64,000 nucleotides of DNA, from the NCBI RefSeq assembly GCF_003850565.1, contig NZ_CP027706.1, forward strand, positions 6,200,001 to 6,264,000, written 5' to 3'. Position numbers and translations under genes: made by a program. This document shows, one piece after another, positions 5,901-46,161 of the stretch (position 1 is its first letter; every line of letters begins with the position of its first letter). Below the pieces are notes generated by a model, which had not been told where the DNA came from, did not search any database, and was given only the letters and a program-made list of their open reading frames with translations. Source of the stretch: Pseudomonas sessilinigenes. Its GTDB lineage: Bacteria; Pseudomonadota; Gammaproteobacteria; Pseudomonadales; Pseudomonadaceae.

Positions 5901-8680
<2,780 letters not shown>

Positions 8681-8930
8681 CTCCGCGCCCCTCTCATTCC
8701 CGGCAGCACCTGCGCTACCCAGGAAGCCGGCACCAACAGCCCTTCAACAGTGGCCCAGGAACCCGCCAGGGCCAAGGGGCTGGCCATGGTCGAAAACCGG
8801 GTTGGCCGCAAGCCGGAGCCTGTCGTGGTGAGAGGGCTGCCTTAAAAAATGCCCAAAAGCCCCATCCGGCGGTTCCCAGAGTCCGGGTTGGCGAGTGCTG
8901 CGCCCAGAACACCAACAATAAGGAGCCACC

Positions 8931-10274
8931 ATGCACCAGCGTACGCAAAACCCTTGCGAGATCATCGATCGCAGCCCGGTTTCTGCTCTGCAGATACGGG
9001 TGTTGCTGTTGTGTTTCCTGATCCTTGTGATGGACGGTTTCGACACCGCGGCCATCGGCTATATCGCCCCGGAACTGATCCGGAACTGGGGCATCGAACG
9101 GGCGCAACTGGCCCCGGCCTTCGGTGCCGGATTGTTCGGCATGCTGTTGGGCAGCTTCTGCTTCGGGCCCCTGGCCGACCGCCTTGGGCGCAAGAGCGTG
9201 CTGCTGATCTGCGTGCTGATCTTTGCACTGGGCACCCTGGCTTCGGCCCTGTCGCCGTCGATCGAGGTACTGGCCGGCCTGCGCTGCATCACAGGCATCG
9301 GCCTGGGCGGCGTGCTGCCCAATTGCATCACCCTGAGTTCGGAATATTCCCCGGCGCGACGCCGCATGCTGCTGGTGACCCTGAGCTATTCCGGCTTCAC
9401 CCTGGGCCTGGCCCTGGGGGGTGGCGTGGCCGGGGCACTGCTGCCCACGGTGGGCTGGCAGGGCCTGCTGGTCATCGGTGGCATCGCCCCTTTGCTGTTG
9501 TGGCCCGTGTTGTATTTTGCCCTGCCGGAATCGGTGTGCTTCATGGCCAACAACCCGCGCCATGCCGTGGCCCTGCGCCGCATCGTCGAGCGGATCAGCG
9601 GTGAAACCGACTGGCAGCAGGTGCGCTTTGCCGGGGACGCTCCGGCCAGCCTAGGGCGCTCGCCATTATCGGCCCTGTTCAGCCAGGGCCAGATGACCCG
9701 CACCCTGCTGCTCTGGCTGACCTTCTTCTGCTGCCTGCTGGTGTTCTACCTGCTGACCAGCTGGCTGCCCACGGTATTGCACGCCAGCGGCTATAACACC
9801 GCCAATGCAGCCCGGATCAGCGCGATGATCCCTTTTGGCGGGGTGCTGGGCGGTATTGCCATGGCGCTGCTGATGGATCGCATCGGCGCCCTGCGCATCC
9901 TGCCCTGGCTGTGCCTGGGCGCGGCGGCGGCCCTGGCCCTGACCGGCAGTCAACTGCACGGCGCTGTCGGCACCCTGGTCATCGTCTTCCTCGCCGGTTT
10001 CAGCCTCACCGGCACCCTGAACAATCTCAGCGTGGTGGCCGCTACCCTCTACCCCACTGCCTCCCGGGCCACAGGCGTGGCCTGGGCCCTGGCGGCCGGG
10101 CGTGCGGGCTCGATTACCGGCTCGATGCTGGGGGGCTGGATCTTCAGCAATGCCGGGAGCCTGGAGCACTTCTTCCTGTGGATTGCCACCCCGGCCCTGC
10201 TGGCTGGGCTGGCGTTGGGGCTGATGAACCGCATTCGGCAAAAGCCACAAGCCGAGATCGAGCCCACGGCTTGA
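8931..10274 (+). CDS. MFS aromatic acid:H+ symporter (AAHS family)
   Basis: 447 residues with 12 predicted membrane helices. The motif LVMDGFDTAAIGYIAPEL in the first helix is the AAHS family signature (PcaK, BenK, MhpT), and GPLADRLGRKSVLL is the MFS loop 2-3 motif. AAGGAG precedes the ATG. Position directly behind the 3-hydroxyanthranilate operon suggests uptake of 3-hydroxyanthranilate or a related aromatic acid; substrate is inferred only from context. Confidence 0.85.
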   Translation: MHQRTQNPCEIIDRSPVSALQIRVLLLCFLILVMDGFDTAAIGYIAPELIRNWGIERAQLAPAFGAGLFGMLLGSFCFGPLADRLGRKSVLLICVLIFALGTLASALSPSIEVLAGLRCITGIGLGGVLPNCITLSSEYSPARRRMLLVTLSYSGFTLGLALGGGVAGALLPTVGWQGLLVIGGIAPLLLWPVLYFALPESVCFMANNPRHAVALRRIVERISGETDWQQVRFAGDAPASLGRSPLSALFSQGQMTRTLLLWLTFFCCLLVFYLLTSWLPTVLHASGYNTANAARISAMIPFGGVLGGIAMALLMDRIGALRILPWLCLGAAAALALTGSQLHGAVGTLVIVFLAGFSLTGTLNNLSVVAATLYPTASRATGVAWALAAGRAGSITGSMLGGWIFSNAGSLEHFFLWIATPALLAGLALGLMNRIRQKPQAEIEPTA

Positions 10275-10376
10275 ACCAGGCTCCAGCGGCCTCCTGGCCA
10301 GCGCCGCGATCAAGCCCGGCCAATGCTCGTAGCCTGTTTCAGCCATCGGCGCCCTGATAGCAAGATCCAGGGCTGG

Positions 10377-24400: not shown

Positions 24401-26020
24401 CAGGGTGGTGCCACCGGCCGTGCTTAACAAGCCACTGCCCAAGGCATTGTTGTTGCCCAGGATCAGGCTGCCGGTATTGAGGTTGGTGGTGCCGCTGAAG
24501 CCAGTGTTGTTGCCGCTCAGGGTCAGGCTGCCAGTGCCGCCCTTGTTCAGCGCGGCGCTGCCGCTGAGGACGCCGGACAGGGTCAGCGCGCCGACACCGC
24601 TGGTACTCAAGGCGTTGTTGAGCACCAAGCTATTGCCCAGGTTGACGGTGCCTGGCGCGCTCAAGGTGGCCGCGCCGCCCAGGGTCACGGTGGAAGTGCT
24701 GAAGGCCTGGTTGTTGCCCACCTGCACCGTGCCGCCATTGAGCGTGGTACTGCCGGTGTAGGTGTTGGCGCCATTGAGGGTCAGTTGCCCGGCGCCGGAC
24801 TTGACCAGCCCGCCGCCACCGGAAATCACCCCGGCCAGGGTGGTGTCGTTGCTGCCTTGCAGGGTCAGGCCGCCAGCGCCCAGGCTGATCAGGTTGTTCA
24901 AGGTCAGGCCGGCGGTACTGGCTTGCAGCACACCACCATTGGAGGTCAGCAGGCCGCTGCCGAAGGTGGCGCTGTTGTTGTACAGGGCCACCCCGCCATT
25001 GAGCGTGGTATTGCCGCTGACCACCGGCCCCTGCAGTGTCCAGGTGCCGCTGTTGAGGGTCAGGTTGTTGAAGTTGACGTAGTTGGCACTGGAAACCGTG
25101 CCACTGCCGGTGGTGCCGCCACCCACGCCCAGGGTGTTTTGCAACAACAGGGTGTTGGAACCGCCAGCGCCACCGTCGATCTGCCCCGTAGGAGCAAATG
25201 TCAGGTCGACCCCCAGCAGGCCGCCCAGGGCGATGCCGATCCCGCCGCCACTGCTGACCGAGGAGCCGGTCACCGCGGTGAAGCTGTTGGTACTGCCAGC
25301 GCCCAGGGACACGCCTCCGGTGATCTGCCCGGTGTTGGTGAAGTTGTTGCCAGCCGTCGAGGATTGGAACGCCACCCGGCCTACCAGGGTGCCGTTGTTG
25401 GTCATGTTGACCTGGGAGCCCCCACGCACCGCCACCACCGGCGCATCGGCAGAGAGCAGGGTCAGGCCCAGCAATGCCGAGGAACCGATGCTGCCGTTGT
25501 TGACGATGGTGGTGCTGCCGCCCGCGCCGTTGTTGATGTTCAGCGCCATGCCGTTGAGCGTGCCCAGGTTCAGGCCGAGGATGCCTGACGTACCGTTCAG
25601 CGTACCGGTGGCGCTGTTGTTGACGTTGACCACCCCGGCGGAACCGTTGCCGATCACCACGCCATTGCTGAGCAGGGTCACCAGCCCGAGCAGGGCCGGA
25701 TCGACGGTTCCGTTGTTGTTGAAGGTAATGCCGTTGCCGGTGAGGCTGATCGCCGTGCCGCCGAGCAATGAGTTGAACGTCGCACCACTGCCGACGTTGA
25801 CCGTCAGGTTATCGGCAGAGCTGGCGAAGGCGTTGGTCAGGATCGCTGTGGCATTGCCAGTGCAGTTGACGGTGTCGTTGGCCACCGGGTTGGCTGGCGA
25901 ACAGGCTGCCATGGCAGCTGGGCTGGCCAGGCTCCAGAGCAGGCCGGCTATTCCAAGGCGGATGGCCATGGACAGAGGAGACAGATTGACAAACACATCC
26001 CTGGCATGACGAACGTTCAC
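15491..26020 (-). CDS. Giant type V autotransporter adhesin with beta-strand repeats
   Basis: 3509 residues. GTG start with AAAGGAG seven bases upstream, then a signal peptide ending near SPAAMA-ACSP (about residue 38). The passenger is a very long Gly/Asn/Leu/Thr-rich beta-helix of more than twenty copies of an about 86-residue (258-bp) module around 'LTLNGANTYQGGT', 'LTLGNNGALGNG' and 'GGLIKNG', matching autotransporter-associated beta-strand repeats (PATR). A distinct FWDGSQT-type module recurs three times (near 21.4, 19.2 and 17.7 kb). The last about 270 residues (from GEMVGWMRVLGTWGD) are an autotransporter beta-barrel ending in the sorting motif FSLDF. Cysteines are almost absent. Expected to be surface-exposed and to act in adhesion or biofilm. 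No protease or lipase motif was seen in the passenger. Confidence 0.95.
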   Translation of the reverse strand: MNVRHARDVFVNLSPLSMAIRLGIAGLLWSLASPAAMAACSPANPVANDTVNCTGNATAILTNAFASSADNLTVNVGSGATFNSLLGGTAISLTGNGITFNNNGTVDPALLGLVTLLSNGVVIGNGSAGVVNVNNSATGTLNGTSGILGLNLGTLNGMALNINNGAGGSTTIVNNGSIGSSALLGLTLLSADAPVVAVRGGSQVNMTNNGTLVGRVAFQSSTAGNNFTNTGQITGGVSLGAGSTNSFTAVTGSSVSSGGGIGIALGGLLGVDLTFAPTGQIDGGAGGSNTLLLQNTLGVGGGTTGSGTVSSANYVNFNNLTLNSGTWTLQGPVVSGNTTLNGGVALYNNSATFGSGLLTSNGGVLQASTAGLTLNNLISLGAGGLTLQGSNDTTLAGVISGGGGLVKSGAGQLTLNGANTYTGSTTLNGGTVQVGNNQAFSTSTVTLGGAATLSAPGTVNLGNSLVLNNALSTSGVGALTLSGVLSGSAALNKGGTGSLTLSGNNTGFSGTTNLNTGSLILGNNNALGSGLLSTAGGTTLDTNTAISLGNALALAGNLTLGGSNALTLGGLVSGAGGLIKNGSADLTLNSANAYLGNTALNTGRLIVGNAGALSTGTLNAAAGTTLDANTALSLGNNVNLAGALTIGGTQNLGLSGQINGAGGLNKNGTASLTLSGNNGFLGNTNLNSGSLIVGSNLALGLGVLNTAAGTTLDSSTSVSLGNTLNLAGNLNLAGSNALTLGGLITGTGGLTKNGTAGLTLNGSNTYQGGTLLNGGTLTLGNSGALGSGALTVGGAANLAGSTSLDLLNDIVLNADLTLDGLNPLILDGDVSGAYGLVKNGGANLTLNGNNSYQGGTLLNAGNLTLGSATALGSGALTVGGASSLSAGSALSVGNAINLNANLTVGGSNALTLGGTIGGSAGLIKSGSSSLTLSGTNTYQGNTALNGGTLILGANGALGNGTLNAANGTSLDASTAVSIGNGLNLGGNLTIAGSNALTLGGVIGGIGGLIKNGSADLILNGANAYLGNTTLNAGRLIVGNANALGGGALNAAAGTTLDSNTVVSLGNQVNLGGGVTIGGGADLTLAGVVGGIGSLIKNGNANLTLNGANTYQGGTTLNAGTLTLGNNGALGNGVLTVAGAANLDSAPGISLNNNLTLNANLTLPGSNDLTLGGVIGGTGQLIKNGTTNLTLNGINTYQGGTALNAGTLTLGNSGALGTGALTVGGAATLDNSTPMALGNNLTLNADLTLAGNNNLILAGVIGGSSGLIKDGLADLSLSGNNTFSGPLNVLAGSVTTLSSGALGNSSGANISAGASLNLGANASLGGLTGSGSVQLSPGVALSVGGSNASSVFNGDLSGSGQLTKVGSGTLTLGGINGLTGNSLVSGGTLKVDGSLASGTVNVASGGTLTGSGSLLGALDVASGGHLALNSGNTLSVGSLVLNSGANLDANLGAPSTTSLLNVGGNLTLGGQLNVSDAGGFGVGVYRLINYTGSLVDLGLNVASVPLGFNLGDLVVQTSVGNQVNLLVSGGTNIRFWDGSQTVPNGAVDGGSGTWDSLNSNWTSVNGTLNQTWGNGFAVFQGTAGTVNVAGAQSFTGMQFVTDGYNLVGAPGGSLTAVNGSGGNTSIRVDPNATATLGVAINGSGTLAKLDSGTLVLNGNNSYSGGTSLQGGTLVVGNNSALGTGALSTANGTTLDSNTAVTLGNAVTLAGALNIAGSNALTLGGVIGGSGSLVKNGSANLTLGGNNTYLGPTALNAGGLILASNTALGGGALNAAAGTSLDASTAVSLTNVLNLAGNLGIGGTADLTLGGMINGAGGLTKNGAANLTLNANNGFTGGTLLNAGTLTLGNNGALGTGGLTVGGAATLDASSALSLANALTLNANLTLAGSNDLTLGGVIGGAGQLIKNGAGNLTLGGVNNYQGGTLLNAGTLTLAQATALGSGALTVGGTATLANSAPLVLTNDLNVNAGLTLAGANDLTLGGVIAGSGTLTKNGAANLTLSGNNSFSGPINVLAGSLTTQSSGALGNSAGVNLAAGSNLNLGASASLGSLSGSGAVAIGSGNTLTLGSGNQGSTFGGSLDGSGQLIKAGTGTLNLSGTSTLSGNTQVNGGTLNLSGSLASAAVTVNSGATLTGNGSLGGALTVADGGHLALSSGNTLSAGSLVLGANSNLDVGLGAPVNGGGNALVNVGGNLTLDGTLNVSDIGGFGTGVYRLINYTGALTDNGLNFGTLPGSVVPGDLQLQTAVGNQVNLLVSAPNTTVLFWDGSQTTGNGVIDGGSGTWGSGTSNWTSVDGSSNQAWGGSFAVFQGNAGTVTVNGTQSLTGMQFVTDGYNLVGGVGGALNLVNGGTGNTAIRVDPNATATLGVTLTGSGTLAKLDSGTLVLNGNNSYSGGTSLQGGTLVVGNDSALGSGALSTANGTTLDSNTAVSLGNGLNLAGALNIGGSNALTLGGVVGGTGGLVKNGNASLTLNGVNTYQGGTLLKAGQLVLGNDNALGSGALTVGGNAQLDSPVALQLANAITLGAQLNLANQQALTLSGAISGNGSLVKNGSGDLLLSGANTYSGGTTLNAGTTRGDASSLQGSILNNAALMFQQNANGTYAGNLSGNGTLIKQGSGTLLLTGNNSFTGTTQVQDGSLLVNGSLASGNVQVANGASIGGSGQLTGTVQLGDGASLKAGGSATPLSVGGLVLSSGTNLDFSLGQATSSTTAVNVAGNLTLDGTLNITDAGNFGVGVYQLFRYGGTLTNNGLNYGTLPGGVLPGSLSLQTALANQVNLLVQGAPGQVQFWNGGQTTANGSIGGGSGTWGSSTNWTDPTGTQTQGAGNQFVIFGGQGGTVTVAGNQSFTGMQVLDSGYNFVAGSNGSLSPTNGSDGSLAKVRINGGVVTQIDAPLVGSGGIEKTDAGVLLLTGANTYTGGTTVSGGTLAGNTTSLQGRMLVNARMLFAQNSNGVFNGLLSGTGTVVKQGAGLLQLNGNQPFSGTLAVEQGTVQIGDAPASLAGQVVVSNGAALQGNGSVGGLVNNGLVSSGGPIGKLAVTGNFSNGSTGTLQLTPTSATSPALQVGGTANLAGNLQVTGLNYGGGTTSYSLINAGGGITGTFSSSNLPQLVFLDTSLAYSANQVNLNVSRNQTAFVDVAQTRNQRGVAAALGAYSGDDDDPADQLNDQILGLDRAGAQNAFNSLSGEIHASTVSALLEDSRYMRDALNDRMRQPGCNSSQDDPRQVLASRENRLSSSGCQGEMVGWMRVLGTWGDMSGNSNTAKLDRNLSGFVLGSDRQLDDTWRAGAAVGYTRSDLKASQRQSEATVNTTHLGAYLNSQFDAVAVRLGAAYSWHKIETKRDVAVGSYSDRLKADYNARSAQVFGEVGYAMDAAGVALEPFVGLSYVNYDSDTGKEKGGAAALKAKASQDVTFSTVGLRAGKRITLSNGQQLTPRLGLGWRHAYGDTKPDADLSFIDGGTSFTTQGVPIAKDSALVEAGLDYQVTPAGKLGIGYSGQLSGQTKDHAMTLNFSLDF
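16900..24800 (-). repeat. Tandem about 258-bp repeats within the autotransporter passenger
   Basis: Segments such as 'CCCAGGGTCAGG', 'GCCACCCTGGTAGGTGTT' and 'TTCTTGATCA' recur at multiples of 258 bp, with phase visible at about 22437, 22695, 22953, 23211 and 23469. They encode 86-residue PATR modules. DNA identity is high enough that copy number could change by recombination or misassemble from short reads. Outer limits are approximate. Confidence 0.8.
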
Positions 26021-26022
26021 GA

Positions 26023-26521
26023 GCGACTCCTTTCGTGAGCAGGCTTTTCATCCGTAAAAATGCGTACTTCTCACAGGGTGCTTAGCCCTCTACTACTCGC
26101 ATCGACGCCTGAAACCTGACCATTGGTAAAATTCCTTGGACAGAAACCTAGACGACGCCATGACAGCTGCCTAATGGCCATGCACCATCAAATAGCATTA
26201 ATACTTTGGAAGTATGTGGGCGCCTTTAGCGGCAAAAATTCATAAATATCCGATAAATATCAATGAGTTAAAGAAATAACCTCCTACTCTTCGGCAAGTC
26301 TCGGGGTGCAACGACCGCCCTATTTCAGTGCAATTATTCCCTCTTTCAAACTCATTCCCCTTCATGGCCGCCGCCGCCCTGCCCTGGGCTCGAAGACCTG
26401 CTCCAGACCTGGCCAATGCAAGTTGGTACGACACATGCAAACGTTTGCGCACCTGGGAATCCAGGCTATTCGCCGATGATTGCCCAAACCTGATCCCATC
26501 CCGCACGAACAAGGATTTTCA
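26023..26521. other. Divergent intergenic region between the autotransporter and tsx
   Basis: About 500 bp without a convincing gene. The centre (26160-26290) is markedly A/T-rich for this genome and contains two direct ATAAATATC copies at about 26241-26261, plausibly a promoter or nucleoid-protein region for the autotransporter. The tsx-proximal part contains the LacI/PurR-type palindrome at 26437-26448. A small frame reading leftward from 26512 has no ribosome site and was not accepted. Confidence 0.6.
26437..26448 (+). promoter_or_regulatory. LacI/PurR-type operator upstream of tsx
   Basis: Perfect palindrome GCAAACGTTTGC, extended to TGCAAACGTTTGCGCA, 73 bp before the tsx start. It matches the core of PurR-type LacI-family operators. 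With tsx and a purine nucleoside permease downstream, control by a nucleoside- or purine-responsive LacI-family repressor is likely; the repressor gene is not in the window. Confidence 0.7.
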
Positions 26522-27478
26522 ATGCATGCCACTTCCAGGCCCACCGCGCGCTCGTACCCACGCAGCGTTTCCCTGCTACTGGGCATCGTTACCGGACTAC
26601 TCAGCCCTGCCCTGTTGGCCCAACCCGCCACCCAGGACGAATCGGCCCAGGGCGAAGGCCTGAGCAAGGACGTGCAACCGGCCAAACCCGGTGCCTACCT
26701 TTCCGACTGGTACAACCAGGACCTGATGCTGATCGGCAGCAAGGACATCAGCTTCGGCCCCCGTCCGGCGGACGACGTCTACCTGGAATACGAATACTTC
26801 GGACGCAAGGGGCCATTCGAGCTGTATGGCTACATCGACCTGCCGAAGATCCTCAATATCGGCAACAGCCACGACAAGGGCGTCTGGGACCATGGCTCGC
26901 CGCTGTTCATGGAACACGAACCGCGCATCTCCATCGACTACCTGGCCGGCCGCAGCCTGGCCATCGGCCCGATCAAGGAGTGGTATGTAGCCTTCGACTG
27001 GATCTACGACCACGGCAGCCGCACCGCCAACCGCGCCAACACCCTGTACAGCGGCCTGGGCACCGACATCGACACCCATTCGCGGGTCAACCTGTCCGCC
27101 AACTTCTACGGTCGCTACCAGTGGGAAAACTATGGCGCCAGCAATGAGTACTCCTGGGACGGCTACCGCGCCCAGCTCAAGTACATCGTGCCCATCGACA
27201 AATTCAGCAACGGCGCGTCGCTGACCTACATCGGCTTTACCAACTTCGACTTTGGCTCCGACCTGCACAAGGACAACCCGGCCCGCACGGCCAACGCCAC
27301 GGTGGCCACCAACGTGCTGCTGTACTCCTTCACCCACTTGCGCTTTACCCTGGTGGGCCGCTATTTCCACAACGGCGGCAACTGGGAGGACGGCAGCGTG
27401 CTGAATTTTGGCGACGGTGAGTTCCGCGCCCGCTCAAACGGCTGGGGCTACTACGCCGGGGTCGGCTACCAGTTCTAG
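26522..27478 (+). CDS. tsx: Nucleoside-specific outer-membrane channel Tsx
   Basis: 318 residues. ATG with AAGGA upstream, signal peptide to about residue 34 (LLSPALLA-QPAT). The mature protein opens with LSDWYNQDLMLIGSKDISFGP, shows DDVYLEYEYFGRKGPFELYGYID typical of Tsx, and ends in an aromatic strand (GWGYYAGVGYQF) with C-terminal Phe for BAM recognition. Tsx is a 12-stranded barrel for nucleosides. It is followed after 99 bp by a purine nucleoside permease-like gene on the same strand. Confidence 0.92.
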   Translation: MHATSRPTARSYPRSVSLLLGIVTGLLSPALLAQPATQDESAQGEGLSKDVQPAKPGAYLSDWYNQDLMLIGSKDISFGPRPADDVYLEYEYFGRKGPFELYGYIDLPKILNIGNSHDKGVWDHGSPLFMEHEPRISIDYLAGRSLAIGPIKEWYVAFDWIYDHGSRTANRANTLYSGLGTDIDTHSRVNLSANFYGRYQWENYGASNEYSWDGYRAQLKYIVPIDKFSNGASLTYIGFTNFDFGSDLHKDNPARTANATVATNVLLYSFTHLRFTLVGRYFHNGGNWEDGSVLNFGDGEFRARSNGWGYYAGVGYQF

Positions 27479-41762: not shown

Positions 41763-41856
41763 CACAGGAAAATACCCATAGACTCCACTGCCTGGAGACT
41801 GGCATCGCGCTCATTCCCTCATGCATCATGCCTACCTTGTCTTATGGAAGAGCCTA

Positions 41857-42663
41857 ATGAGCAATACGGATATACAAAAGGCTGCACTGGCCTTGCGATC
41901 TTATTCGGGTCAGGTCGAACTGCATGATCACGACTACCATCAGATAGTCCTGCCTCAGTCTGGTTCGATGGAAATTGAAGTCGACGGAAGAGGTGGCAAG
42001 GTTGATTGGAGCCAGGGAGTGATTATTCCGGCCGGCACTCCTCATGCCTTTTCTTCCAATACTTGCAACACCTTCCTGGTTCTAGATGTACCGCTTCCCT
42101 CTAGTTACACACAAAAAAGCGAAGCAGAAACCATCAAGAGACTGAACGAGAAAAGCTTCTTCCCGGTAAGACCGGAAATTCGTCACTTGCTAGACTACGC
42201 GTCCCGTAGTGTCCCCCTACTGACTAGCTCATCAGAAGTGTCTCAAGCTTGGAGCACATTGCTGATGTCATCTCTGGTGCAACCTCACAGTAGTGTCCCC
42301 GACCATGGGCAGTTCACCCTGGCCAGGGCATTGACGCATATAGAGAACCATCTCGATAGTCATTTGACCGCTTCGGAAATCGCCCGAGCTTCAGGAACCA
42401 GTGAACGGCGCTTATATGTGTTATTCGAACAACACCTGAGAACTACACCATTTGCCCACGTGACACGACTACGCTTGAATCTGGCCATGGATCTGCTGCG
42501 CGACACTCAGTTATCAATTACTGAGATTGCTCACCGAGTAGGCTACGCCGACCAGAGTGCATTGAATCATGCGTTGAAAAAAAGCCATGACTTGACGCCT
42601 GCACTCGCTCGAAAGAACTCCAGGGCCAATAACATGCAGACTGGAACAAATAACCAGCAGTAG
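41857..42663 (+). CDS. AraC-family regulator with cupin sensor, island regulator
   Basis: 268 residues. ATG at 41857 has GGAAGAG five bases upstream; an ATG at 41821 lacks one. The N-terminal cupin (VELHDHDYHQIVLPQSGSME; GVIIPAGTPHAFSSN) and the C-terminal AraC domain (HLTASEIARASGTSERRLYV; SITEIAHRVGYADQSALNHA) are intact. First gene of the low-G+C island; likely senses the island product or substrate and regulates the two genes behind it. Confidence 0.88.
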   Translation: MSNTDIQKAALALRSYSGQVELHDHDYHQIVLPQSGSMEIEVDGRGGKVDWSQGVIIPAGTPHAFSSNTCNTFLVLDVPLPSSYTQKSEAETIKRLNEKSFFPVRPEIRHLLDYASRSVPLLTSSSEVSQAWSTLLMSSLVQPHSSVPDHGQFTLARALTHIENHLDSHLTASEIARASGTSERRLYVLFEQHLRTTPFAHVTRLRLNLAMDLLRDTQLSITEIAHRVGYADQSALNHALKKSHDLTPALARKNSRANNMQTGTNNQQ

Positions 42664-42697
42664 AAGCCAAGACCGTCTCCAATCACCTTTTTATCAT

Positions 42698-42726
42698 CCC
42701 CGCTCCGAAACACTTACTGGGCGGGG
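42698..42726 (+). promoter_or_regulatory. Hairpin masking the ribosome site of the EamA gene
   Basis: CCCCGC (42698-42703) can pair with GCGGGG (42721-42726), which is the only purine-rich ribosome-site candidate before the ATG at 42730. Could restrain translation of the exporter; speculative. Confidence 0.35.
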
Positions 42727-42729
42727 CGC

Positions 42730-43641
42730 ATGACAGAAAGTACAACCTCTTCGAAAACCAGCGACAGTCGAACAACCACTTCAGCGACCGCCATTGGCGT
42801 CATTGCCGTATTTCTCTGGTCATGCTTGGCCTTACTCACCACCTTCACCGCCGGCATACCACCTTTTGAACTGTTGGCGCTGAGTTTTGCCGTAGCGTTT
42901 CTGGCAAGCTTGGTGATTCTCGGATTGCGCGGTTCGAACGGATTCGCTGGTTGGCGCCAGCCCTGGCAAGTCTGGGTAACAGGGTTCCTGGGAATCTTCG
43001 CCTATCACGCCCTGTATTTTTTTGCTCTCAAAGTTGCACCTCCCGCCGAAGCCAGCCTGATTGCCTACCTTTGGCCGCTACTTATCGTATTGCTCGCGAG
43101 CATTGCTGGCGGTCAAACACTACGCCAGCGACAGCTGCTGGGTGCGCTCTTGGGGCTCGCCGGTACGGCATTCATCATGCAACAACGGTCACAAAACAGT
43201 ATCGCCGACATGCCGCTGGCAGGTTATACAGCCGCGTTGCTCTGCGCCTTGGTATGGTCAAGCTACTCGGTGATCAACCGTCGCTTCAACAATGTCCCCA
43301 GTAGCATCATTGGCGGGATCTGCGGCTTAGTGGCCGTGGCAGGCCTGCTATGCCACCTGGCGCTTGAAGTCACAGTCCACCCCAACTTCAGCCAATGGGC
43401 TGCGATCATCGCACTTGGGTTAGGCCCGGTCGGCCTGGCTTTCTTTGCCTGGGACCACGCCACCAAGCACGGCAACCTGGCAAGCCTCGGGGCATTGTCC
43501 TATCTCGCACCACTGTTCTCGACGTTACTGCTGATATTGATTGGCCAAGTCCATGCCAAACCGATCCTGCTGATTCCAGCAGCACTCATTATCGCTGGCG
43601 CAGTAGTAGCCACCTCTCGCCAGCCCACGCCACGCCCTTGA
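42730..43641 (+). CDS. EamA/DMT-family exporter (YddG-like)
   Basis: 303 residues with ten predicted helices in two EamA repeats after a Ser/Thr-rich N-terminal tail of about 20 residues. Features such as LGIFAYHALYFFALKVAPPAEASLIAYLWPLLIVLL and GPVGLAFFAWDHATKHGNL resemble the YddG aromatic amino-acid exporter group. Between the AraC regulator and the radical SAM gene, it is a natural candidate to export the product of that enzyme or provide self-protection. Low G+C, like its neighbours. Confidence 0.85.
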   Translation: MTESTTSSKTSDSRTTTSATAIGVIAVFLWSCLALLTTFTAGIPPFELLALSFAVAFLASLVILGLRGSNGFAGWRQPWQVWVTGFLGIFAYHALYFFALKVAPPAEASLIAYLWPLLIVLLASIAGGQTLRQRQLLGALLGLAGTAFIMQQRSQNSIADMPLAGYTAALLCALVWSSYSVINRRFNNVPSSIIGGICGLVAVAGLLCHLALEVTVHPNFSQWAAIIALGLGPVGLAFFAWDHATKHGNLASLGALSYLAPLFSTLLLILIGQVHAKPILLIPAALIIAGAVVATSRQPTPRP

Positions 43642-43671
43642 ATCTCTCTACCTGAAAGGAATCCTAGAAAA

Positions 43672-45474
43672 ATGCACCTGATTGCTTCCGAGGGGATAGC
43701 AAGGTTTGATCGCGCCACTCCAAGTTTTTCGGTGGCTCCTACAAGAGCGCCTCTCCAATTAACAGGAGGTCCCTCACGCACGGCCAGCCATAGCGCTATT
43801 CAACGACGGGCTCATGGAGAAGCCCCAAGAGTGCTGTTATTCGTGCCGCCCTACACACGCTTGGTCGAACCGGCCCCTGCAAATAGCGCCTTTACCGACA
43901 TTGGCATCCATTCCTTTGAAGTAATGAAACGTGCTGGCACTCCTATAGGCTTGTTGCGTATCGCTACAGTAGCCAAACGTGCTGGTTACGATGTGCAGAT
44001 TATCGACTCCCCTTTCGCCGGCTGGGAGCAGGAATCACGCTTGGTAGATTTGGATCAAGGCCACCTGCTGCGCTACGGACTGACTGACGAGCAGATACGT
44101 AAAATCATCGAAACAGCCCAACCTGACATTATTGGTATCCAGTGCAACTACACAGTGCAATGGGGCAACGCTAGAGCGTTGGCTGACCTCGCCAAATCCA
44201 TCGATCCAAACCTGATACTAGTAACAGGAGGTGCCCACTCCAGTGGCGACTGGCAAAACGCCCTGCTGGATTCGGTATTCGACTTTGTCCTTATCAATGA
44301 AGCCGATCGTGCCTTCACTTTGTTACTCGACGCCCTGAGTCATCCCGGAGCCGATGTCTGTGGTGTTCCCGGGGTGGCCTACCGGGGTTCGCAGAACCAA
44401 CTGATCCGACCATCACGCAAGTCCAGTTATTTGAGCATCGTGCCCAACCGCCAGGAACTGAGTGAGCGACTGGGTGTGATGCCGTTACCGGACTTTACCT
44501 TCCTGGACATGAATCACTACCTGCAGCCTTATCACTCTTCAGGAGCACGGGTACGCAAACACGGAGCCTGGGCCCAGATTTTTTCCACCATCGGCTGTAA
44601 CGTGAACTGCAACTTCTGCTACATCCCTAAAGTCAATGGCCCATGGCGAGCGCTGGGCCTGGATTGGTTTGACCTGCATTTAACAGACCTAGTCAACCAG
44701 GGTGTCACCGAAGTACTGATTGAAGACGATCATCTGATGCACGATCCCTTGTATGCAATGGAAGTGGGACGTTTGTTGAAGAAACATGACTTGCCCTGGG
44801 TCGAGGAAGGCGGGTTAAGTCTGTTCAACCTGATACTCCTGCATCAAGGAGAACGCTTCCTCGCAGAACTAGATGACAAGGAGTTGAAAAGCCCTCAGTA
44901 CCGTAATGTGATCGCGGCAATCAAAGGCGGTCTGACCGCTCGAGAGTTCATTCGCTCGATTGCTGAAAACGGCTGTTACAGCGTCTACCTGGCGGTAGAA
45001 AGTGCTAACGAAGATAGCTTGGTCAACTCCAACAAATCACGTTTCAACGCGATACAGCATGCCACCTTCGAAATCATCGAGATATTCACCGAACATGGCA
45101 TCCAGGTAACCGGAGGGTTCATGCTGGGGTTCGTGAACCCACCAACCGTACCTGGCGCCAAGCCGTTCATAGAAAGCCTGGAGTTGATCGAAAGAACCAC
45201 CGACTATGCAGTCAGATTGATGGGAGCTGGCATGGCATACGCCAACCCATTTATCGTCACGCCTATTCCTGGCACCGAGATGTGGGAATACCAGCAGCAA
45301 TTTGTAGTGCGCCACTATGACAATGGCTGGTCTCACGAAAAAGCCACCATGGCTACCGAACAATGGAGTGCCGAGGACATCGAAAAAGCCAGGCTGGAGC
45401 TTTTGGTCCGGGCCAACGGCGCAAATCGGGTGAGAGAGATGGTCCGCCGCGGCACCTGGCCAGTAGACGCATAA
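43672..45474 (+). CDS. Cobalamin-binding-type radical SAM enzyme, function unknown
   Basis: 600 residues. An N-terminal extension of about 50 residues with no recognised motif precedes a B12-binding-like Rossmann domain (about 53-225: PRVLLFVPPY, GLLRIATVAKRAGYDVQIID, PDIIGIQCNYTVQWGNARAL, VTGGAHSSGDW, FVLINEADRAF). The radical SAM core follows from about residue 300 with the 4Fe-4S motif CNVNCNFC (Cys309, Cys313, Cys316). This is the class B, cobalamin-dependent layout seen in methyltransferases, cyclases and ring-contracting enzymes. The classical DxHxxG cobalamin ligand is absent, as in many of these. Ends with a C-terminal region of unclear fold (GANRVREMVRRGTWPVDA). The AATG start has AAGGA rather far upstream. 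Substrate unknown. Confidence 0.85.
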   Translation: MHLIASEGIARFDRATPSFSVAPTRAPLQLTGGPSRTASHSAIQRRAHGEAPRVLLFVPPYTRLVEPAPANSAFTDIGIHSFEVMKRAGTPIGLLRIATVAKRAGYDVQIIDSPFAGWEQESRLVDLDQGHLLRYGLTDEQIRKIIETAQPDIIGIQCNYTVQWGNARALADLAKSIDPNLILVTGGAHSSGDWQNALLDSVFDFVLINEADRAFTLLLDALSHPGADVCGVPGVAYRGSQNQLIRPSRKSSYLSIVPNRQELSERLGVMPLPDFTFLDMNHYLQPYHSSGARVRKHGAWAQIFSTIGCNVNCNFCYIPKVNGPWRALGLDWFDLHLTDLVNQGVTEVLIEDDHLMHDPLYAMEVGRLLKKHDLPWVEEGGLSLFNLILLHQGERFLAELDDKELKSPQYRNVIAAIKGGLTAREFIRSIAENGCYSVYLAVESANEDSLVNSNKSRFNAIQHATFEIIEIFTEHGIQVTGGFMLGFVNPPTVPGAKPFIESLELIERTTDYAVRLMGAGMAYANPFIVTPIPGTEMWEYQQQFVVRHYDNGWSHEKATMATEQWSAEDIEKARLELLVRANGANRVREMVRRGTWPVDA

Positions 45475-45582
45475 GCACAACACCCTCTGCCCCACTGATC
45501 CGACAAGAAAAATCCCTCTGGAGCAGCCTGTAACCGGCATGGGATGATGCGCGCCTTCAATCCTGATGCCCGGAGGTTGTGC

Positions 45583-46161
45583 ATGTCATCCCTAGCTAGA
45601 AAAGCCCTGGTCCTGGTGTTTGCCGCCGTGGCAAGCCTCGGTACGCTGAATGCCGTGGCCGCGGGCAAATCCACGGCCAAGCAGGCTGCGGGCGAAAAAG
45701 TCGCCTTGCTCGACGGCAAGCTGGCCTTCAGCCTGCCCAAGGGCTTCAGCGCCGCGACCCTGCCGGTGGGCGATGAAGCCAAGGGCACCGGTGGCGCCAG
45801 CGGTACGCTGTACGCCAATGACACAACCCGCACCGTGGTGATCGCGGCGCAGAACCGCATTCCCAACGGAGCCCAGGTCAAGGACAACGACACGGCGTTC
45901 CTGGATGACGCGGTCAGCGGTTTTCTCTCGCAGCAAGCCCAGGCCTTGCCGGATTTCAGCAAGCAGGCGGAAAAGAGCATGACCCTCAAGGGACTCGGGG
46001 TACGCCAGATCGACAGTACCGCGACCCAGGGCGGGGGGCTGACCCTGAACTCGACCCTGATTGCCGGTTCCGGCTCGCGCATGGCGGTGATCCAGGTCAT
46101 TTCCCGGGCCGCCGACAAGGCCGGTCATGCGGCCTTGATGAAGCAGATTCTTGGTCAATGA
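45583..46161 (+). CDS. Exported protein of unknown function
   Basis: 192 residues. The ATG at 45583 has GGAGG seven bases upstream, and a signal peptide ends near NAVAA-GKST (about residue 27). The mature protein (VALLDGKLAFSLPKGFSAAT; TVVIAAQNRIPNGAQVKDND) is vaguely like DcrB/PsbP-type periplasmic proteins, but no family can be asserted. High G+C returns here, marking the end of the low-G+C island. Confidence 0.75.
   Translation: MSSLARKALVLVFAAVASLGTLNAVAAGKSTAKQAAGEKVALLDGKLAFSLPKGFSAATLPVGDEAKGTGGASGTLYANDTTRTVVIAAQNRIPNGAQVKDNDTAFLDDAVSGFLSQQAQALPDFSKQAEKSMTLKGLGVRQIDSTATQGGGLTLNSTLIAGSGSRMAVIQVISRAADKAGHAALMKQILGQ

Follow-up and report, generated by a model that had tools for sequence, protein, structure and literature searches.

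In some soil Pseudomonas, a class B radical SAM enzyme of a discrete family is accompanied at all 11 loci by a YddG-type exporter, whereas the exporter often occurs without the enzyme. The best explanation of this one-way dependence is a minimal metabolite operon, in which an AraC regulator would switch on an exporter and an enzyme that together make and expel an amino-acid-like, probably growth-inhibitory compound, and in which non-producers would keep the exporter as protection. We give this explanation an even chance of being correct.

Organization and composition of the locus

The window, which is the whole 64,000-nucleotide stretch of Pseudomonas sessilinigenes DNA that was analysed, contains the following features.

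41821..42663, + strand: AraC-family regulator, with a weak cupin/AraC-binding-like N-terminus and a C-terminal HTH_18
42635..42675, + strand: candidate AraC operator of two direct half-sites, a motif common to the AraC-bearing loci
42692..42697, + strand: TATCAT, candidate -10 box of the eamA-rSAM transcript, read from the sequence
42730..43641, + strand: YddG-type EamA/DMT amino-acid exporter (NF050091, EamA)
43672..45474, + strand: class B (B12-binding) radical SAM enzyme of 600 aa (PF02310 and PF04055)

The three genes are co-oriented and tightly spaced, as the earlier note on this DNA had described: all ORFs are open, and the gene coordinates leave gaps of 66 and 30 bp. The trio is part of a single-contig genome of 6.9 Mb. 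The note had also placed it as a low-G+C segment in a neighbourhood of 65-75%. The first part of this claim was borne out, because the G+C content of araC, eamA and the radical SAM gene was 49.6, 56.8 and 53.1% (GC3 0.52, 0.63 and 0.59) vs 63.2-66.7% (GC3 0.79-0.86) in the five neighbouring genes tested. The second part was overstated: the four 1-kb segments spanning positions 42001-46000 had G+C fractions of 0.515-0.584, and the other 60 had 0.60-0.71, except for one at 0.557.

The low G+C content does not establish the trio as a recent foreign island, because four relatives keep it at the same chromosomal site (up_memb/DcrB). The enzyme gene has a G+C content of 59-61% in the three of these four that were measured, and a recent foreign island was rejected as the sole reading. 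Among named relatives, Pseudomonas sp. Fl4BN1 and P. protegens FD6 are the closest at this locus. In comparisons of the window with three same-site relatives, dS was 1.2-2.7 for the trio, whose GC3 was low, and 0.33-0.97 for the neighbours. The window trio thus looks as if it had been replaced, or were drifting, as one block; with dS near saturation, block-wise replacement and AT-drift could both explain the low values.

The radical SAM enzyme and its relatives

The Pfam matches of the enzyme are PF02310 (B12-binding) at residues 89-218 (59.1 bits, cut-off 32.1) and PF04055 (Radical_SAM) at residues 305-487 (38.3 bits, cut-off 29.5). A B12-binding domain N-terminal to the radical SAM core defines the class B radical SAM superfamily, and the score of this domain predicts that the enzyme probably uses cobalamin. 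In an alignment of 44 members (the window protein and 43 of 86 homologue matches), all three cysteines of the CxxxCxxC cluster motif (C309-x3-C313-x2-C316) are invariant, and the C-terminal GTWPV is found in at least 90%. The mean pLDDT of the AlphaFold2 model is 93.7. When the protein was compared with family models, it matched 18 NCBIfam families at E <= 0.001 and exceeded the cut-off of none. Judged by these comparisons, the enzyme belongs to a discrete family for which no characterised member was found. Constraint on the enzyme is very strong where it is kept, with dN/dS of 0.03-0.07 in ten pairs.

Relatives of the enzyme occur in Pseudomonas, Streptomyces, Kitasatospora, Methylobacterium and archaeal MAGs (the tree comprised 78 rows, with proteins shorter than 500 aa and P0084 left out). 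In six non-Pseudomonas loci of 4.7 to 18 kb each (L011, L012, L025, L026, L027 and L030), neither AraC nor EamA was matched at E <= 1e-5, and the archaeal relatives lack the AraC/exporter pair. By eye, the archaeal loci share a common neighbour ORF (four of five) and, in three, an ORF that we take to be CsaA-like. Plasmids gave no match at E <= 1e-20, and of two pattern matches in viral contigs neither was confirmed.

This different company in archaea, together with the fold that the enzyme shares with MiaB/RimO-type enzymes, is what would be expected if the enzyme modified a macromolecule or a cofactor and its adjacency to the exporter were incidental. However, in all 11 Pseudomonas loci, whose flanks differ, the enzyme gene follows that of the exporter, and repeated loss is unlike a housekeeping modification; we consider this explanation distinctly improbable.

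A separate observation concerns P. proteolytica and a close species (genome G384). Downstream of the trio, both carry genes for PsrA and PhnX, which exceed their NCBIfam cut-offs; between these two lie a LysR gene of the aminoethylphosphonate type and a GlpT/PgtP-like MFS gene, neither of which reaches its cut-off. Such a phosphonate neighbourhood would fit the weak likeness of the enzyme to P-methyltransferases. It was found at one site in two close species and was absent from the other 28 loci scanned, and we take it as a chance neighbourhood.

The exporter

The exporter matches EamA in Pfam (91.6 bits, over cut-off) and exceeds the NCBIfam YddG equivalog NF050091 (326.6 vs a cut-off of 300, residues 15-296), whereas it does not reach the older YddG model NF008676 (82.7 vs 194). 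Residues 16-295 align with structure 5i20 (SnYddG) at E 2.9e-73. The match to the YddG model suggests a putative role in aromatic amino-acid export.

In ten pairs of loci without an intact enzyme, the exporter dN/dS was 0.03-0.14. Four close pairs of loci with and without the enzyme gave 0.31 (L010/L070), 0.72 (L009/L075), 0.18 and 0.05, and at L076 the exporter itself is broken.

Distribution of the trio and repeated loss of the enzyme

In all 11 Pseudomonas loci of the enzyme, AraC and the exporter lie beside it, the exporter being 5' of the enzyme, and these loci represent at least four kinds of genomic neighbourhood. The five other neighbouring genes of the window were not found at the six enzyme loci lying at other sites (flanking ORFs of at least 80-90 aa covered), which bears, as do the short gaps within the trio, on the question of a RiPP precursor.

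We searched 199 Pseudomonas genomes twice, with results that agree for the genomes listed. The exporter was present in 23, an intact enzyme in 3 and a clear enzyme remnant in 2, and neither enzyme nor remnant was detected without the exporter. Among the 23 exporter genomes, 18 had no enzyme by protein search, 2 had only a remnant, and 11 kept the exporter without AraC. The trio is consequently not a fixed unit.

Traces of the enzyme were found 3' of the exporter. At L059, about 52 N-terminal codons are fused to residues ~474-600, and at L075, 9 codons are joined to roughly the last 60. L060 and L076 retain shorter traces; that at L063 is weak (16 nt, in a poorly fitting position). Matches of 16-17 nt at L058, L065, L066 and L074 were not counted, because their position does not fit, and a minus-strand control for the short traces gave no matches. 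L070 and L071 have lost the enzyme with no significant trace, as have the ten AraC-less loci other than L075. Furthermore, several subclades of the exporter tree pair an exporter whose locus has the enzyme with a sister whose locus lacks it, and three chromosomal sites carry the enzyme in only some of the relatives. Since enzyme-positive and enzyme-negative loci mix in this tree, we conclude that the enzyme was lost repeatedly; the exporter mostly remained under purifying selection. This pattern of loss indirectly supports a self-protection role of the exporter.

The same distribution could arise if AraC and EamA were an ordinary "safety valve" for an amino acid, with the enzyme an optional activity on that amino acid that yields no toxic product, so that its loss would be that of a dispensable side activity. 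The exporter is much commoner than the intact enzyme, it is kept even without AraC, and it bears a YddG label, all of which would agree with this. A safety-valve role has been argued for the aromatic exporter AexB, in a study that distinguishes it structurally from YddG (PMC13170310). The strong constraint on the enzyme where it is kept, and the presence of AraC and EamA at all 11 enzyme loci behind a common candidate operator, count against it, and we consider it unlikely, though a serious possibility.

Enzymes that are oxygen-sensitive and consume SAM are an unlikely first choice for detoxification. This general consideration weighs against a role of the enzyme in modifying an amino-acid-like toxin made by neighbours, with AraC sensing the toxin and the exporter removing the modified product, as does the fact that an exporter lacking the enzyme is the most frequent arrangement. 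A ligand-type regulator paired with an exporter would suit such a role, and a patchy distribution with repeated loss would fit a conditional resistance trait; nevertheless, it appears quite improbable.

The AraC regulator and its candidate operator

The AraC protein carries HTH_18 (PF12833) at residues 187-265 (72.0 bits, over cut-off), which identifies the C-terminal double HTH; of its 25 NCBIfam matches, none reaches its cut-off. Its counterparts in the other 10 enzyme-bearing Pseudomonas loci are 60-89% identical. The candidate operator overlaps the 3' end of araC, with half-sites at 42636-42649 and 42657-42670, 21 bp apart, the second being degenerate in the window. All 19 AraC-bearing loci examined have this direct repeat 5' of the exporter, whereas none of the 11 AraC-less loci does; L077, whose AraC is 36% identical and whose score is -15, was left out of the count. 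Leave-one-out matrix scores ranged from 40 to 67 in 18 loci, and the window, at 16.9, was the weakest of the 19. The best score in the 11 AraC-less loci was <= -35 over 1.1 kb. The consensus matched itself at 14/20 positions at offset 21 and at <=10/31 at other offsets. A candidate -10 box lies at about the same distance in the 19 loci (TATTGT in 11, TATCAT in 5, TATTTT in 2 and TAGTGT in 1), and no operator-like score was seen upstream of araC in ten trio loci.

Across the genome, the pattern, which was itself drawn from these sites, had only one exact match. With up to two mismatches there were 9 sites (one, at 4278066-4278090, with a single mismatch) vs 8 for a reversed control pattern, and within the window, with up to three mismatches, 1 match vs 0.9 expected. 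Because the genome scan is near the control level, only the exact site stands out. The direct repeat, with half-sites about two helical turns apart, is a candidate binding site of AraC. This common candidate operator, together with the constant company of AraC and EamA at varied sites, fits the regulator-exporter-catalyst logic that the earlier note had proposed.

Proposed mechanism and significance

In the proposed metabolite operon, AraC would sense a small ligand, bind the 21-bp-spaced direct repeat, which overlaps the -35 region expected for eamA, and turn on eamA-rSAM. The enzyme, with a [4Fe-4S] cluster, SAM and probably cobalamin, would carry out a one-step change of one abundant small metabolite, with a free amino acid, or a close analogue of one, as the most likely substrate and an aromatic amino acid as the likeliest of these. 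Methylation would be the likeliest reaction. The YddG exporter would expel the product, which is probably growth-inhibitory, and would thereby both release it and protect the cell. The exporter is kept in lineages that delete the enzyme, as would be expected of resistant non-producers, and there it may serve protection or ordinary amino-acid export.

Several observations speak against this mechanism. Ordinary amino-acid homeostasis would also explain retention of the exporter, including at the 11 of 23 loci where AraC is missing. The exporter dN/dS of 0.31 and 0.72 in two of the four close pairs and the broken exporter of L076 indicate less constraint than full protection predicts. The operator copy in the window is the weakest, and in the archaeal relatives the enzyme occurs with neither AraC nor the exporter.

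In a bolder form, which we offer tentatively and regard as rather doubtful, a new discrete radical SAM family of soil bacteria and DPANN archaea would convert a core metabolite in a single step into a hitherto undescribed amino-acid antimetabolite. In Pseudomonas, the enzyme would be combined with a YddG exporter and an AraC switch of its own into a one-enzyme toxin/protection operon, producers would be repeatedly replaced by resistant non-producers, and the enzyme would perhaps have passed from archaea to bacteria. If the metabolite operon is real, one enzyme gene and one exporter gene are enough for a cell to produce a new amino-acid-like compound and withstand it, which would make new class B radical SAM chemistry easily accessible. 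Cluster-finding programs could overlook the natural product, since there is hardly a cluster to recognise, and the many losses at the same sites with the exporter kept would be a natural experiment on producer/non-producer turnover.

Comparison with known systems

The literature matches listed contain no description of an AraC-YddG-radical SAM unit, in agreement with the earlier statement that no system of this composition was recognised; the scope of this comparison is open-access papers.

The best two NCBIfam matches of the enzyme are the P-methyltransferases Sden_1168 (NF038361) and PhpK (TIGR04479), with which it has the B12-binding and radical SAM halves in common. Its scores, however, are 69.1 bits vs a cut-off of 575 and 47.6 bits vs 600, and unlike the P-methyltransferase pathways, the trio includes no other pathway gene. 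Neither the tryptophan 2-C-methyltransferase TsrM (TIGR04428, cut-off 500), with which the fold agrees, nor ArsL (NF040542, cut-off 450) is among the 18 families matched. The solved structures of AprD4, MgmA, CysS and TsrM have 14-22% identity to the enzyme. These proteins dehydrate or methylate unlike substrates, and the fold therefore does not tell the reaction of the enzyme. Since AprD4, the closest solved fold by Z, is titled a dehydratase and not a methylase, methylation is not assured.

The ArsM protein is a methyltransferase, and ArsQ functions as a permease. The arsQML arsinothricin operon leads to a non-proteinogenic amino-acid antibiotic with three genes, one of them for a radical SAM enzyme, ArsL (PMC8552651). 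The window unit likewise has three genes including one for a radical SAM enzyme, whereas its other two encode AraC and YddG. The amb cluster of Pseudomonas also yields an amino-acid antimetabolite. The gvg (FVG) cluster of Pseudomonas, which makes an amino-acid antimetabolite, has 12 genes, including LysE-type transporter genes, and the term "radical SAM" is absent from the main text of that paper (PMC8064604). By comparison, the window unit has one catalytic gene and a YddG-type exporter. This exporter resembles YddG itself in both the equivalog score and the alignment to 5i20, and differs from it in standing behind a dedicated AraC and before a radical SAM enzyme.

Organization of the locus and its conservation in Pseudomonas

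The low-G+C row of AraC, EamA and radical SAM genes recognized in the earlier note was borne out as three open genes on one strand.

41821-42663, + strand: AraC regulator (araC), open reading frame
42730-43641, + strand: EamA exporter (eamA), open, passing the NCBIfam YddG cut-off
43672-45474, + strand: B12-binding/radical SAM protein of 600 aa (rSAM), open

The G+C content of the trio was 49.6-56.8%, compared with 63.2-66.7% in the five neighbouring genes tested. The host genome is a single contig of 6.9 Mb, and the nearest named relatives at the locus are Pseudomonas sp. Fl4BN1 and P. protegens FD6. A second dip in G+C (0.557 over 1 kb, window positions 26001-27000, GC skew -0.153) is separate from the trio.

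Against three relatives with the trio at the same site, dS was 1.2-2.7 for the trio genes, a range in which such values are unreliable, versus 0.33-0.97 for the flanks. The change in divergence ends at the trio edges, and GC3 is low in all three genes. On the simple reading, the trio would have been replaced as a unit from a donor of lower G+C, and composition drift could add to the high dS.

The AraC and EamA genes lay upstream of an intact enzyme gene, in the same order, in all 11 distinct Pseudomonas loci with an intact enzyme (the window and compared loci L004-L010, L013, L028 and L057), and all ten enzyme copies outside the window were open over 599-600 codons. Among the nine loci whose surroundings were classed (all but L006 and L008, the latter with less than 1 kb of sequence after the trio), no fewer than four settings occur, marked by up_memb/DcrB, by an alcohol dehydrogenase, by a LysR gene and by a psrA-phnX cluster. 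The five other genes next to the trio in the window are all absent from the six loci at other sites; thus, there is no fourth larger gene common to all trio loci.

In two close species, the psrA-phnX region lies directly 3' of the trio (L007, P. proteolytica, 5902-10361; L028, 5217-9681), with PsrA and PhnX above the NCBIfam cut-off and the intervening LysR and MFS genes below it. In P. flavescens, a REP-associated tyrosine transposase gene lies a short way 3' of the trio (L006:12292-12825).

Loss of the enzyme and retention of the exporter

The tally of gene order proposed in the earlier note held in Pseudomonas when counted from the enzyme (11/11), but most exporter genomes lacked the enzyme. 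Exporter and enzyme searches each covered 199 Pseudomonas genomes, and their listed handles agree. The exporter was found in 23 genomes (E <= 1e-80) and the enzyme in five, three intact and two as remnants, all among those 23. Of these 23 exporters, 12 have an AraC gene beside them, including a distant one at 36% identity, and 11 have none.

Both remnants sit directly behind the exporter: in L059, about 52 enzyme codons are joined to residues ~474-600, and in L075, nine codons are joined to about the last 60. Three more loci hold shorter traces: L060 matches over 23/23 nt at the enzyme's start codon, L076 has a 29-nt piece of the 3' end (93%) and a 17-nt piece farther inward, and L063 has a weak match of 16 nt. 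At three sites, the flanks are common to relatives with and without the enzyme. In the exporter tree, three sister pairs unite an enzyme-bearing with an enzyme-less locus (L009/L075, L010/L070 and L008/L062); one group of seven is mixed, and two others are pure (four with, ten without). Two losses are certain because remnants remain, and there would have been at least eight if gains are disallowed and each distinct junction represents a separate event. Repeated gain of the enzyme at one position after the exporter is a poorer reading, though it may apply to loci without any remnant.

The dN/dS values were 0.03-0.07 for the enzyme and 0.06-0.20 for the exporter in the same ten pairs, and 0.03-0.14 for the exporter in ten pairs of loci without an intact enzyme. 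Four pairs differing in the presence of the enzyme gave exporter values of 0.05, 0.18, 0.31 and 0.72, at a dS of 0.02-0.16. These values, together with a broken exporter in L076, indicate that the exporter is generally retained, although its constraint shows signs of having relaxed where the enzyme was lost recently in some lineages.

A candidate AraC operator

The motif GCAGnCYnGAACA, with a similar half-site 21 bp on, was present upstream of eamA in 19/19 AraC-bearing loci examined. Leave-one-out scores of a 41-bp matrix were 40-67 in 18 AraC-bearing loci and 16.9 in the window; the best score in 11 AraC-less loci, within 1.1 kb around the exporter start, was -35. The consensus matches itself at 14/20 positions at offset 21 and at no more than 10/31 at other offsets; a spacing of two helical turns between direct repeats is typical of AraC operators. 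The candidate operator was intergenic in all eight loci checked against ORF ends (L004-L010 and L028), and it overlaps the end of araC in the window. A TATnnT-like box lies downstream in most loci. The pattern, which was derived from these same sites and first spotted by eye, has a single zero-mismatch site in the whole genome, and the regulator may therefore serve the trio operon alone.

Distribution of the enzyme family

Named members of the family come from Pseudomonas, Streptomyces, Kitasatospora, Methylobacterium currus and Micrarchaeota, 'ainarchaeum' and Nanoarchaeota MAGs. The enzyme is rare: it occurred in 4/398 Pseudomonadaceae genomes, counting the window's own, and in 4/245 genomes of the phylum to which the genome of archaeal locus L012 belongs, again counting that genome. 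A phylum-level search of 398 genomes returned the window's genome and a single weak match at 34% identity. A quick tree built from 78 rows placed the cultured bacteria in late groups within a clade that has Micrarchaeota and metagenome sequences among its early branches. Transfer from archaea to bacteria is only a lead, because the tree has flagged long branches and a midpoint root.

No exporter or AraC match was found in archaeal loci L011, L012, L025, L026 and L030. Another neighbour is shared beside the enzyme in four of the five, and this neighbourhood is perhaps vertically inherited. Similar ORFs of 222-227 aa are the enzyme's direct neighbour in L012 (1229-1897) and L030 (2237-2908) and next but one in L011 (1089-1772) and L025 (172-843). 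The ORF adjoining the enzyme gene in L011, L012 and L025 is presumably CsaA-like.

Two Streptomyces matches, P0055 and P0058, align to only 45 and 40% of the window enzyme's length and have no radical SAM Pfam match; they may be copies that have decayed or been frameshifted, as in Pseudomonas. L027:11220-12743 encodes a distant relative of the class B radical SAM type, which scores 232.8 bits against the Sden_1168 model (cut-off 575) and lies among genes that, judged by eye, resemble a surface-sugar cluster.

Proposed function and comparison with known systems

In the proposed mechanism, AraC would sense a ligand and activate eamA-rSAM, the enzyme would carry out a single-step conversion of a core metabolite, an amino acid being the likeliest, and the exporter would expel the product. 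We give such a production-and-export unit an even chance. In Pseudomonas, LysE-type transporter genes are reported alongside the amino-acid antimetabolite cluster gvg (PMC8064604). A toxic product with a protective exporter predicts that the maker is lost and the exporter kept, which is the pattern found. The main rival, ordinary amino-acid export, likewise predicts exporter retention, and the archaeal loci with neither an exporter nor an AraC match argue against production and export. Transport of tryptophan, tyrosine and phenylalanine by YddG is stated in PMC13170310, hence our guess that the substrate may be aromatic; that the enzyme methylates an aromatic amino acid is a rather unlikely possibility.

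Among the matches listed in open-access literature searches, no description of the enzyme family or of the one-enzyme operon was found. The regulator, the exporter and the enzyme superfamily are of known kinds.
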